A stretch of 62,501 nt of DNA, taken from Nitrosovibrio sp. Nv4 (GTDB lineage Bacteria; Pseudomonadota; Gammaproteobacteria; Burkholderiales; SG8-39). The stretch covers positions 1 through 62,501 of the forward strand of contig CAMDRF010000004.1 in assembly GCA_945906765.1 (NCBI GenBank), in the 5' to 3' direction. The notes beneath the pieces are model-generated. The model saw only the letters and a list, made by a program, of their open reading frames with translations, was not told the DNA's origin and made no database searches. Positions 21,528-34,331 of the stretch are shown in pieces; the first letter of the stretch is position 1, and every line of letters starts with the position of its first letter. Both the position numbers and the translations under genes were made by a program.

Positions 21528-22133
21528 TTAGATAAACAGGCTTACGTCAGCATCGCGCGCCATCGGCAGGAAGTGCGCCGCGCCGCAGTACTCCTTCACT
21601 TCCGGAATGAAATCGTCGCGCGTGTAGCCGAACAGGTCCACCGTCATCTGGCAGCCGATCAGCTTGACGCCGCCTTCGATGCACGCCTCGCGCAACTCGG
21701 CCACGCCGGCGACCCCCTTGTTCTGGATGGTCTGCTTCATCAATGCCGTGGCCATCGTTTCGAAGCCCGGCACGATGGCCTGCACGGCGTTCGGAATGTT
21801 CCAGTTGATCCCCTTGAACCAGTCCGGGCCGAAGGGCATCTTCATCGGCATGCCGGGGTTGCCGAGCGGGCTTACCTTCAGGTCGCTGATGTCCTTGCGC
21901 AGCAGGCCCAGCCCGTAGAAGGTGAAGAACATCGACACGTCCCAACCCATTGCCCCGGCGGTCGAGGCGAGGATGAACGGCGGATAGGCCCAATCGAGCG
22001 TGCCCTTGGTGGAGATGATGGTCATCGAGGGCGTTTTCGCGGCCCGCAGCTCGGCGAGCTTCTGTGGCAGCAGGGCGTCGAGACGCTCGGCGATCAGCCG
22101 GTCGAGCGCGGCGGTGTCGGGTTGCGCAGCCAT
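21528..22133 (-). CDS. dsrE2: DsrE2-type sulfur-transfer membrane-associated protein
   Basis: A 201-aa protein of the DsrE2 (DsrE/DsrF/DrsH-like) family. The conserved core is MTIISTKGTLDWAYPPFILA followed by MGWDVSMFFTFYGLGLL, and the second half has the active-site-type cysteine in KLIGCQMTVDLFGY plus CGAAHFLP near the end. DsrE2 works with TusA (and often a rhodanese) in cytoplasmic sulfur relay. The gene is divergent from the CsoR-family repressor and tusA, with an operator-like dyad at 22175-22191 just upstream of it. Confidence 0.88.
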   Translation of the reverse strand: MAAQPDTAALDRLIAERLDALLPQKLAELRAAKTPSMTIISTKGTLDWAYPPFILASTAGAMGWDVSMFFTFYGLGLLRKDISDLKVSPLGNPGMPMKMPFGPDWFKGINWNIPNAVQAIVPGFETMATALMKQTIQNKGVAGVAELREACIEGGVKLIGCQMTVDLFGYTRDDFIPEVKEYCGAAHFLPMARDADVSLFI

Positions 22134-22174: not shown

Positions 22175-22191
22175 ATACCCTCCAAGAGTAT
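22175..22191. promoter_or_regulatory. Operator-like dyad upstream of dsrE2
   Basis: Sequence ATACCCTCCAAGAGTAT, an imperfect inverted repeat (ATACYC ... GRGTAT), lies 42 bases upstream of the dsrE2 start. It resembles the ATACC-GGTAT dyad at 22294-22304 before the repressor gene. The pair suggests that the CsoR-family protein controls both arms of this divergent locus. Inference from sequence symmetry only. Confidence 0.45.
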
Positions 22192-22293
22192 ATGCAAGAA
22201 CTTTCATGTGCCGCACAGCAGCATAAAAGGCATTGTTCGGCCAATAAAATTTATCTTTATCCGCGCTTGCGCGGGGTTGGCGCGGAAGATACC

Positions 22294-22304
22294 ATACCCG
22301 GTAT
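22294..22304. promoter_or_regulatory. Operator-like dyad upstream of the CsoR-family gene
   Basis: ATACCCGGTAT is a perfect dyad around a central base, placed 13 bases before the ATG and immediately upstream of the AGGAGG ribosome site. CsoR/CstR-family repressors bind ATAC ... GTAT palindromes with G/C tracts, so this is a likely autoregulatory site. Confidence 0.5.
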
Positions 22305-22317
22305 AGGAGGCGGCACG

Positions 22318-22593
22318 ATGTCCGGACCCCGCATGCACGATCCCAAGGAAAAACAGGCGATGCTCGCGCGGCTGGCGCGCGTCGAGGGGCAGGTGCGCGC
22401 GCTCCAGCGCATGATCGGGCGCGACGAGGAGTGCGAGGCGATCGCGCAGCAGCTTTCGGCGTCGCGCAAGGCGCTCGACCGCGCGTTCTACGAGATGGTC
22501 GCCTGCATGATCCGGCACGGCGCGCAGGCGCGCGGCGGCGCGCGCGTAGCGGGCGCCGGACAGGTTGCCGATCTACTCGCGCGTTACGCGTAA
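22318..22593 (+). CDS. CsoR/FrmR-family repressor with atypical cysteines, putative persulfide sensor
   Basis: A 91-aa all-helical repressor of the CsoR-RcnR-FrmR family (RLARVEGQVRALQRMIGRDEEC). The ATG at 22318 follows AGGAGG by 7 bases. Cys39 matches the first ligand of CsoR, but by alignment the second-site His is Met and the usual second Cys is Gly. Instead there is Cys63, 24 residues after Cys39. This does not fit a copper or nickel site, nor the 29-residue spacing of the persulfide sensor CstR. Between dsrE2 and tusA, a sulfane-sulfur-sensing role is the likeliest, controlling itself and both flanking sulfur-relay genes (inference). Confidence 0.82.
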   Translation: MSGPRMHDPKEKQAMLARLARVEGQVRALQRMIGRDEECEAIAQQLSASRKALDRAFYEMVACMIRHGAQARGGARVAGAGQVADLLARYA

Positions 22594-22622: not shown

Positions 22623-22850
22623 ATGAACTTTGACAAAGAACTCGACGCCCGCGGGCTGAACTGCCCGCTGCCGATCCTGAAAGCGAAGAAATCGCTCAAC
22701 GACATGCAATCCGGGCAGGTGCTGAAGATCGTCGCCACCGATCCGGGCTCGGTGAAGGATTTTCAGGCTTTTTCCAAACAGACGGGCAACGAACTCCTGT
22801 CGCAGACCGAGGCGAACAAGGAATTCATCGTCTTCCTCAGGCGCAAGTAG
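22623..22850 (+). CDS. tusA: TusA-family sulfur carrier
   Basis: A 75-aa TusA (SirA-like) protein. The active-site motif is LDARGLNCPLPILKAKKSL, with Cys15 carrying the persulfide. It starts with ATG 9 bases after GGAGGTGA and lies 29 bases after the CsoR-family gene, so the two form a + strand unit. In sulfur oxidisers TusA accepts sulfur from a rhodanese or DsrE2 and passes it to DsrEFH and DsrC. Confidence 0.95.
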   Translation: MNFDKELDARGLNCPLPILKAKKSLNDMQSGQVLKIVATDPGSVKDFQAFSKQTGNELLSQTEANKEFIVFLRRK

Positions 22851-22851
22851 C

Positions 22852-23220
22852 CTAGGCGACGCTGCCGAAGCCCTTGTCGATGGCGCCGGCCGGCGCCTTG
22901 AGCCCCGCGATCCGGCAACCTTGGGCCACCGGCCCCGCGGGAAAGAGCACGTAGAGATGCCGGATGCCGCCCTGGCGATGAAATTTTTCATCGAGCGCGT
23001 CGTGCAGTTCGCGCAGTTTGACGGCGGTCGCCTCGTGCTTGGCGTAGTACTCGTGCAGGGCGCGCAACGCTGCCCAGTGGTCTTCGCCGATCTCCAAGCC
23101 TTCCTGCCGCGCGACCTCGCCGGCGGTCGCCGGCGTCCAGCCCTCCGGCGCGTGAGGGAATCGAGGGTCCCTGCTCGCGCCGCGTCCGCCGCCGACGATC
23201 TCATCCATCAGACTCGTCAT
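22852..23220 (-). CDS. DsrC-family protein with only the CysB-type cysteine
   Basis: A 122-aa DsrC/TusE-family protein: EGWTPATAGEVARQEGL, then IGEDHWAALRALHEYYAKHE and the C-terminal arm ending GCRIAGLKAPAGAIDK. Canonical DsrC has two cysteines 11 residues apart in this arm. Here only Cys102 (the CysB position) remains, the CysA position is Ala113, and the protein continues for nine more residues. This is the reverse of TusE, which keeps only CysA. It cannot form the intramolecular trisulfide of DsrC. Convergent with tusA (1 base between stops) and probably co-transcribed with the upstream tandem-TusA gene. Confidence 0.82.
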   Translation of the reverse strand: MTSLMDEIVGGGRGASRDPRFPHAPEGWTPATAGEVARQEGLEIGEDHWAALRALHEYYAKHEATAVKLRELHDALDEKFHRQGGIRHLYVLFPAGPVAQGCRIAGLKAPAGAIDKGFGSVA

Positions 23221-23250: not shown

Positions 23251-23739
23251 TCAACGCTTGCGGATCTGGAACTGGTATTCGCCGGGCGCGCTTTCCCGCG
23301 CATCGGCAAGTTCCAGGCCGGTCGCCTTCACCCAGCTGCGCACGTCCGCCCTGATGCCCGGGCAGTCGCTGATGAGTTGCAGCACTTCACCCTTGCCCAT
23401 GCCGTTCAACAGCTTCTTCGCCTCGACGATGGGGCCCGGGCAGGTGGCGCCGCGCACATCGAGCACGGCATTGGGAGAGACGCGCCGCGCCTTGCCCTTG
23501 CGGATGTAATACCCGGTTGCGCCTCGCGCCAGTTTCCTGGTTTTCACGATCTCGACGTCGGCATACTTGGGCCAGGAATAGAGGTCGTCCCTGGTAGAGG
23601 GACAATCGGAAACCAGCAACATCACTTCGCCCGCAAGCAGATCGTCGAGCACTCGCTTGGCGCCCAGCATCGGCCCCGGGCAGGCGGAGCCCTTCATGTC
23701 GAGGGTGACGTGCGGTTTTGGAGAGGTTGCCTTGACCAT
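23251..23739 (-). CDS. Tandem TusA-domain protein
   Basis: A 162-aa protein made of two TusA domains in a row. The first has MKGSACPGPMLGAKRVLDD and the second VRGATCPGPIVEAKKLLNG, so both keep the CPGP active-site cysteine. Each domain has a further cysteine in SDCPSTRDD / SDCPGIRAD. The ATG at 23739 is preferred; a GTG at 23763 is in frame. With the DsrC-like gene 30 bases downstream it forms a sulfur-carrier pair. Tandem TusA proteins could hand sulfur between two sites of one polypeptide (inference). Confidence 0.85.
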   Translation of the reverse strand: MVKATSPKPHVTLDMKGSACPGPMLGAKRVLDDLLAGEVMLLVSDCPSTRDDLYSWPKYADVEIVKTRKLARGATGYYIRKGKARRVSPNAVLDVRGATCPGPIVEAKKLLNGMGKGEVLQLISDCPGIRADVRSWVKATGLELADARESAPGEYQFQIRKR

Positions 23740-23773
23740 AGCGGCGCGCGAGCCATGCAGCACTAGAACGGGT

Positions 23774-23835: not shown

Positions 23836-24420
23836 TCAGCGGGGCGCGGTATCAACCGTCTGTTCGACCAGTTTCTTGATAACGCGCGCCATTTCCGGTG
23901 CCTCGATGTCCATCATCTGCTCGACCACCCACTTGTTGTCACCGCTCGCCATGGCATCGGACACCCTGGTGGCGAAATAGCGCAGGCAGGCAAAGCCAGG
24001 CTCTCCGTCGGGGCACTCGAAGCCGGCGTACTCCGCGAAGCGGGTGTTGAGCAGCTCGATGAATGGTTTGCGGTATTCCCCCGGTCCGAACAGATCCAGC
24101 TGGTTGTTTTCCATGGTCGCCGCCAGGTGGCCCGCCAGCTCGCCGATGAGCGTGGCGCGGTCGGCCTCGCCCAGCTTGCCGTACACCGCGCGGTCTACGA
24201 GTTGAACGAGAAAAGCAATGAACTCGGTGAGCACACCGGTCACCAGCCGGTCCGAGCCGAAGCGAAAGCCCTCTTTCTCCATGTGCTTGAAGATCTCGAG
24301 CGAGATCTTCCAGACGTTCGCGCCGATCACGCCCGCTCGCTCGGCGAGCGTGCGCGCGCGTTTGTTGCGCCAGCGGGTTTTGGCGAGCGCCAGCGTAGGG
24401 CGGCTGCTGATGATGGCCAT
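23836..24420 (-). CDS. Unknown 194-aa helical protein in the tus region
   Basis: Predicted all-helical cytoplasmic protein, no signal peptide or membrane span. It starts MAIISSRPTLALAKTRWRNK, has IFKHMEKEGFRFGSDRLVTG, and near the end carries two cysteines in AGFECPDGEPGFACLRYF, then DNKWVVEQMMDIEAPEMARV. I do not recognise the family. The two closely spaced Cys could be redox active or bind sulfur. It is the first gene of a probable minus operon with the tandem-TusA and DsrC-like genes (97-base gap) and is divergent from the Sel1 gene. Confidence 0.8.
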   Translation of the reverse strand: MAIISSRPTLALAKTRWRNKRARTLAERAGVIGANVWKISLEIFKHMEKEGFRFGSDRLVTGVLTEFIAFLVQLVDRAVYGKLGEADRATLIGELAGHLAATMENNQLDLFGPGEYRKPFIELLNTRFAEYAGFECPDGEPGFACLRYFATRVSDAMASGDNKWVVEQMMDIEAPEMARVIKKLVEQTVDTAPR

Positions 24421-27441: not shown

Positions 27442-27783
27442 TCAGTACCCGCCCTTGCGCAGGCTCTCGGGCAGCCCGGCGATCTTGCCCGCCTGCTTGG
27501 AGGGGTTGCCGGGGTAAAGATCGAACAGGGTCTTGTTGTCCACCTTGCGGCCTGGCCATTTTTCCTGTATTGCCTTGAGGATCGCGCGGTTGTTCGGTTG
27601 TTCGCCGTTGTGGTTGACATAGGCATCGCGCAGGTACTCGATCACGTCCCAGTGGTCCTGCGTAAGGGTGATCCCCTCGGCGGTCGCGATTACCTCAGCG
27701 ACGGCCCTGTCCCAATCGTCCAGCGATTCCAGAAAGCCGTTCTCCGTCGTCGCAATCTGCTTGCCATTCACTTCGTACGCCAT
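27442..27783 (-). CDS. DsrC/TusE-family protein without any cysteine
   Basis: A 113-aa DsrC-family protein: MAYEVNGKQIATTENGFLES, LTQDHWDVIEYLRDAYVNH, and the arm GNPSKQAGKIAGLPESLRKGGY. Both arm cysteines of DsrC are glycines and there is no cysteine anywhere, matching the cysteine-free regulatory members of the family (sometimes called RspA) rather than a sulfur carrier. It is the last gene of the TauD-TPR-Cas6-like operon, 17 bases after the Cas6-like stop. A binding or regulatory role is likely; persulfide transfer is excluded. Confidence 0.85.
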   Translation of the reverse strand: MAYEVNGKQIATTENGFLESLDDWDRAVAEVIATAEGITLTQDHWDVIEYLRDAYVNHNGEQPNNRAILKAIQEKWPGRKVDNKTLFDLYPGNPSKQAGKIAGLPESLRKGGY

Positions 27784-33998: not shown

Positions 33999-34331
33999 AT
34001 GCCTATCGAACTGAACGGCCAAACCATCGAAACCGATGAGGAGGGCTATCTCGCGAACCGCACCGACTGGAACGAGGACATAGCGAAGGAGATGGCGCGC
34101 CTAGACAGTTGCGACCTGGGCGAGAACCACTGGGAGGTGATCAACTTCCTGCGCGAGTACTACGAGCAGTACCAGATCGCCCCGGCGGTGCGGGTGCTGA
34201 CCAAGGCGATCGGCAAAAAGCTGGGCGCCGAAAAGGGCAACAGCAAGTACCTGTACGAGCTCTACCCCTACGGCCCCGCTAAGCAGGCCTGCAAGTACGC
34301 GGGACTGCCCAAGCCGACCGGCTGTGTGTAG
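33999..34331 (+). CDS. dsrC: Canonical DsrC with both arm cysteines
   Basis: A 110-aa DsrC, the sulfur-carrying co-substrate of DsrAB and DsrMKJOP. The C-terminal arm is KQACKYAGLPKPTGCV, with CysB at 98 and CysA at 109 (penultimate), both needed for the trisulfide. ATG at 33999 follows GAAGGGAG. It is the only one of three DsrC-family proteins in this window with the full pair. Confidence 0.97.
   Translation: MPIELNGQTIETDEEGYLANRTDWNEDIAKEMARLDSCDLGENHWEVINFLREYYEQYQIAPAVRVLTKAIGKKLGAEKGNSKYLYELYPYGPAKQACKYAGLPKPTGCV

Follow-up and report, generated by a model that had tools for sequence, protein, structure and literature searches.

The window (the whole 62.5-kb stretch of DNA that was analysed), which comes from a sulfur-oxidising bacterium, contains a 184-bp gap from which dsrE2 on the minus strand (21528–22133) and csoR and tusA on the plus strand (22318–22593 and 22623–22850) diverge. 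The dsrE2 gene encodes a sulfur carrier (PF13686, E 1.6e-45; 209.1 bits against the NCBIfam model SulfCarrDsrE2, cut-off 210), csoR a repressor of the CsoR family and tusA a sulfurtransferase/carrier (PF01206, E 4.9e-24). The start of tusA is 29 bp behind csoR, and the two genes probably form one operon. Relatives conserve dsrE2 in 13 loci, and in 12 loci they have tusA following csoR.

The remainder of the window looks like a sulfur-oxidation island with apr-, soe-, sor- and dsr-type genes. Profile matches identified the sulfur carriers and sorAB, whereas the apr, soe and dsr genes were named by recognising their translated sequences. On the strand opposite tusA lie genes for a DsrC/TusE-family paralogue (22852–23220, 122 aa), kept beside tusA in several relatives, and for a protein of two fused TusA domains (23251–23763), kept nearby in several relatives. 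Two further proteins, recognised by eye (27442–27783 and 33999–34331), are presumably DsrC-like; the former has GGY as its last residues, lacks a cysteine in the C-terminal region, and lies upstream of the dsrA-like gene. The 194-aa protein encoded at 23836–24420 gave no Pfam or NCBIfam match, and has a relative with 78% identity near the equivalent divergon at locus L006.

Residues and fold of the window repressor

The csoR product is a 91-aa protein (translated from the plus strand and beginning MSGPRMHDP...RDEECEAIAQQLSASRKALDRAFYEMVACMIRHG...) that matched the Pfam profile Trns_repr_metal (PF02583) with 66.7 bits against a cut-off of 22.8 (E 2.4e-18). Its AlphaFold2 model consists of three helices (residues 9–34, 39–72, and 76–89), and the best fold matches of this model were chains of CsoR, FrmR, CstR, and InrS, with a probability of 1.00. 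The profile match, the three-helix fold and the cysteine at the first ligand position (X) place the protein in the CsoR/RcnR family (DUF156, PF02583), of which csoR is the only gene in this genome.

The X cysteine is Cys39 (codon 22432–22434), at the start of helix 2, and the second and third ligand positions, Y (+25) and Z (+29), are occupied by Met64 and Gly68. Another cysteine, Cys63 (codon 22504–22506), stands at +24, the residue preceding Y, and shares with Cys39 the single continuous predicted helix 39–72. These residues confirmed the reading of the earlier note, which had placed Met and Gly at the second and third CsoR ligands and a cysteine 24 residues after the first.

The copper site of CsoR and RicR is formed by Cys-His-Cys at X, Y, and Z, and the nickel/cobalt site of RcnR has His at Y and Z together with the X cysteine. 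The window repressor has Cys, Met, and Gly at these positions, and scored 33.9 bits with the RicR model (cut-off 175) and 37.5 bits with the RcnR model (NCBIfam equivalog cut-off 138). FrmR is marked by Pro2 and Cys35; here residue 2 is Ser, and the FrmR model gave 43.8 bits against an NCBIfam equivalog cut-off of 133. All these metal and formaldehyde sensors (CsoR, RicR, InrS, RcnR, and FrmR) share with the window repressor the fold, the X cysteine and an operator of inverted half-sites, but differ in having His at Y, in the Z cysteine of CsoR and InrS, in their effectors and, in the chains aligned, in the absence of a cysteine at +24. None of the aligned solved family members has Cys at this position, which is E in CsoR (4adz) and CstR (7mq1), I in FrmR (5lcy), and D in InrS (5fmn) and in 6ahx.

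Conservation of the cysteine pair and its gene context

Homologues were gathered at the levels of the same family, order, class and phylum, with additions from contigs of public genomes, and the tree of the branch was built without the Cys39 and Cys63 columns, from a short alignment and with modest support. Both cysteines are invariant in a 25-row alignment (A1), and the pair occurs in 67 of the 77 branch members, hence in at least 67 proteobacterial homologues. These 67 proteins and ten relatives without Cys63 are grouped by one split of the tree (SH-aLRT 81), and proteins with His at Y (CsoR, InrS, FrmR, and RcnR types) all lie on the other side (SH-aLRT 84). CstR-type sequences stand beside the +24 branch, nearer to it than the metal sensors.

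Six of the ten relatives without Cys63 keep Cys39 and four have lost it too; Cys63 without Cys39 was found in no sequence of the homologue set. The four with neither cysteine form separate tree groups (L082/L121 and L073/L074), so that double loss seems to have happened more than once. Residue Y varies freely in the branch (M, L, S, A, V, T, Y, D, N, F, or Q), and Z varies too. Because His is absent from Y and Cys from Z in all 67 pair members, no conserved metal site is left. A search for plasmid carriage returned three weak matches only, and virus contigs five weak relatives. The open-access literature that we searched holds no description of the +24 branch, of which there may be a prior mention as an unnamed cluster; it is apparently a large, undescribed branch of the CsoR family. 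The earlier note had called the cysteine arrangement novel; this calls for qualification, the pair being common to a broad proteobacterial branch that has the CsoR fold and operator type.

Of the 67 pair members, 46 have a core sulfur gene no more than 1.5 kb away, compared with 1 of 45 homologues with His at Y (metal/formaldehyde-type; Fisher p 8.5e-14) and 0 of the 10 branch members without Cys63 (Fisher p 4e-5), both p-values being overstated because the panel of sulfur genes was drawn from neighbours of the +24 branch and the rows are related. No panel gene was present within 1.5 kb in 21 of the 67. For a link between loss of Cys63 and loss of sulfur neighbours the tree offers four independent contrasts at most, too few for a test. 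The neighbour sets of the branch comprise dsrE2 and tusA; YeeE/YedE proteins (Sulf_transp, DUF6691) with a persulfide-dioxygenase-like metallo-beta-lactamase protein; sox genes; SQR/FCSD-like genes; and an RND pump with a membrane-fusion protein, a YgaP-like transmembrane protein and thioredoxin. Six loci in which Cys63 or both cysteines are lost (L162, L166, L168, L169, L171, and L172) have no sulfur genes nearby, and several of them share other conserved neighbourhoods.

Predicted operators in the divergent gap

Two dyads with ATAC and GTAT half-sites lie in the 184-bp gap and are predicted operators. O1 (22175–22191), upstream of the adjoining dsrE2, is the 17-bp sequence ATACCCTCCAAGAGTAT, that is ATAC-CCTCCAAGA-GTAT, of the form ATAC-N9-GTAT. 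O2 (22289–22304), just 5' of the csoR ribosome-binding site, is the 16-bp sequence ATACCATACCCGGTAT, that is ATACC-ATACCC-GGTAT, of the form ATAC-N8-GTAT. No other match to ATAC-N(8,9)-GTAT exists in the 62.5-kb window; the two sites compare with a chance expectation of 0.09, and 0 of 100 shuffles contained two. This count and the residue check described above show that the arrangement of cysteines and dyads is genuine and clearly exceeds chance. A search around O1 and O2 for sigma-70 consensus promoters found none.

Among the 13 divergent dsrE2-type loci, 12 have an O1-type ATAC-N9-GTAT upstream of dsrE2 and 12 an O2-type ATAC-N8-GTAT upstream of csoR (expected 0.00 in Markov shuffles in either case). 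The TAA and GC..A flanks of O1 are conserved too, and relatives keep the element ATACC-N6-GGTAT of O2; in L142 the dyad on the csoR side lies 183 bp from the start. Elsewhere in the branch, ATAC-N8-GTAT stands upstream of csoR in 29 of 53 loci (expected 0.12), often as ATACTATAGGGGGTAT, a G-tract flanked by ATAC/GTAT arms. Such a G-tract between the arms is usual for the CsoR family. The gap holds predicted operators of the CsoR type, with inverted ATAC/GTAT half-sites by csoR and dsrE2 that are conserved among relatives.

Dyads on both sides of the gap had been proposed before. The first (22175–22191) was correctly placed, but the second had been misregistered and begins five bases too far right: we rejected the 11-bp ATACCCGGTAT because its inner arm is not kept in relatives and the overlapping ATAC-N8-GTAT at 22289–22304 is. 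The CsoR-family protein ScCsoR (SCO0620) of Streptomyces coelicolor was reported to bind the 16-bp site ATACCn6GGTAT (PMC7533328); O2 matches this form exactly, and O1 has one extra central base. In the whole genome the strict ATAC-N8/9-GTAT pattern occurs at 12 places, compared with 6 for a reversed control. The other ten, away from the divergon, fall within or next to unrelated genes, and a wider regulon was rejected on these grounds; a site abutting the groES start was judged to be due to chance.

Proposed function and rival explanations

On its family, the placement and conservation of its cysteines, its operators and its gene context, all established by sequence comparison, the window repressor is probably a sulfane-sulfur-responsive, autoregulating repressor with the CsoR fold, similar to CstR in action but with its second thiol shifted from Z to the residue before Y. 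CstR of S. aureus and S. pneumoniae (PDB 7mq1–7mq3) and the CstR-like YrkD of B. licheniformis share with it the CsoR fold, the X cysteine at the start of helix 2, a residue other than His at Y, a two-cysteine site and sulfur gene targets. CstR is reported to sense persulfides and polysulfides through sulfur links (di-, tri-, and tetrasulfides) that join Cys31 to Cys60 of an adjacent subunit (PMC9774590). Its second cysteine is at Z (+29), where the window repressor has Gly and its own second cysteine at +24; the residues of 7mq1 at +24, +25, and +29 are E, N, and C. Furthermore, the characterised CstR proteins in the cited literature are from Firmicutes, whereas the +24 branch was found in Pseudomonadota. 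The window repressor thus lacks the two cysteines 29 residues apart that mark CstR, yet on present evidence it appears to work like CstR.

ScCsoR is released from DNA by HSnH, for which both of its cysteines are needed, and shares with the window repressor the O2 form of the operator and autoregulation, the latter predicted here (PMC7533328). Its targets include PDO, rhodanese, and TauE, and members of the +24 branch also adjoin PDO-like and TauE-like genes; however, its cysteines, 37 and 66, are 29 apart, and it governs the removal of sulfane sulfur, not dsrE2 and tusA (PMC7533328). TTHA1953 of Thermus thermophilus is likewise a two-cysteine CsoR-family repressor of lithotrophic sulfur oxidation (sox) whose DNA binding is weakened by oxidation, but it has C39 and C68 (29 apart), a consensus TACNNTACNNNNGTANNGTA without a G-tract, and targets distant from its own gene (PMC10318464). 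In all the published CsoR-family proteins that we found to respond to sulfane sulfur or to control sox genes (CstR, ScCsoR, and TTHA1953), the cysteines are 29 apart. SoxR and sHdrR of Hyphomicrobium denitrificans are sulfane-sulfur-responsive repressors of sulfur oxidation genes from the unrelated ArsR family; in SoxR a sulfur bridge links two cysteines, and related regulators are found near RND pumps, TauE, and YeeE-type genes (PMC12423496, PMC11582611).

The earlier note had suggested a different class of sulfane-sulfur sensor. Sensing of sulfane sulfur gains comparative support from the excess of sulfur neighbours over homologues with His at Y, the conserved operators and the ScCsoR form of O2, but a separate class does not: because the +24 type makes up a broad proteobacterial branch within the CsoR fold and operator type, we consider it a variant of CstR-like sensing rather than a separate system.

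From these comparisons we infer how the repressor would bind DNA, repress, meet its inducer and react between subunits. In its reduced form it would occupy O2, around the start of csoR-tusA, as well as O1 on the upstream side of dsrE2, keeping both transcripts low. The inducer would be rising cytoplasmic sulfane sulfur, as persulfides or polysulfides, possibly carried on TusA. Cys39 would become persulfidated and then react, over the antiparallel interface of helix 2, with Cys63 of the adjacent subunit. The product would be either a bridge (disulfide or polysulfide) or a persulfide that the second thiol stabilises. The modified repressor would leave the DNA, and dsrE2 and tusA would be expressed. 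The co-encoded TusA is itself a possible sulfur donor to the repressor, by analogy with Hyphomicrobium, where Li et al. propose that TusA may hand sulfur to SoxR and sHdrR (PMC11582611).

In the monomer model, about 36 Å separate Cys39 from Cys63 (24 residues of helix 39–72, each rising 1.5 Å), so any bridge between them is predicted to join two subunits. At the interface of CsoR-family proteins, X meets Y' and Z' of the neighbouring subunit. A contact of Cys39' with Cys63, one residue before Y, is therefore plausible by analogy, although on an ideal helix this residue points about 100 degrees away from Y, which counts against such proximity.

It is possible, though we hold the idea only tentatively, that sulfane sulfur is sensed by persulfidation of Cys39 alone, with Cys63 in a structural or stabilising role and no bridge between subunits. 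ScCsoR offers a parallel, being persulfidated solely on Cys37, though Cys66 is needed for release (PMC7533328), and the six branch members with Cys39 but no Cys63 fit the same idea, as does the lack of any with the reverse. On the other hand, every branch member with a panel sulfur gene within 1.5 kb carries Cys63, and the ten members without Cys63 have no such gene there. We think it rather unlikely, but conceivable, that the +24 site differs from CstR in geometry and chemistry, Cys63' lying off the Y/Z face and the trigger being a longer polysulfide bridge, or a persulfide that the co-encoded TusA passes straight to the repressor, which would then read out carrier loading, not free polysulfide.

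The example of TTHA1953 points in another direction. Under non-reducing conditions this protein loses DNA with H2O2 or Cu(II), but it gave no response to NaHS (PMC10318464), which counts against the sulfane-sulfur reading and would suit a general sensor of thiol oxidation (peroxide or disulfide stress) that happens to stand near sulfur genes and has no sulfane-sulfur specificity. The genes beside the +24 branch make, move, or consume sulfane sulfur, not peroxide, and we regard such a sensor as improbable. A sensor of Cu(I) or Ni/Co with unusual ligands such as His7-Cys39-Cys63-Met64 is very improbable. Membership of the family speaks for it, as does His7, which aligns with position 3 of the RcnR model and is conserved in most dsrE2-type members; however, conservation of His7 does not extend beyond the dsrE2 group, Y and Z vary freely, the RcnR, FrmR, and RicR scores are far under their cut-offs, and the neighbours are sulfur genes rather than metal exporters. 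A formaldehyde sensor of the FrmR type is scarcely credible in spite of FrmR being among the nearest solved structures (E 1.4e-8), given the low FrmR score, the lack of His at Y, the absence of formaldehyde genes among the neighbours we noticed, and Ser as residue 2, the P2S variant of FrmR, like C35A, being below the formaldehyde-sensing threshold (PMC5016687).

In the literature that we found, characterised regulators of lithotrophic sulfur oxidation are few, and none is described there for the dsrE2/tusA route feeding Dsr. The +24 branch offers a candidate, together with operators, a cysteine hypothesis, and natural variants lacking one or both cysteines. If the proposed CstR-like sensing is right, the CsoR scaffold hosts a second sensing thiol at two places along one helix, allowing a direct test of how geometry governs the choice of inducer in a well-studied allosteric family.

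Once expressed, DsrE2 and TusA would supply sulfur to the cytoplasmic Dsr pathway of sulfur oxidation, whose genes lie nearby. In both dsrE2 and sox settings, csoR genes of the branch repeatedly adjoin a gene for an outer-membrane porin of the FadL/OmpP1/TodX type (the member tested matched PF03349), a candidate entry route for hydrophobic sulfur. The porin gene lies beside dsrE2 in eight loci (L004, L139, L140, L142, L143, L144, L146, and L148) and was seen in others (L012, L016, L017, L164, and L170); in the window, sorAB occupy its place.
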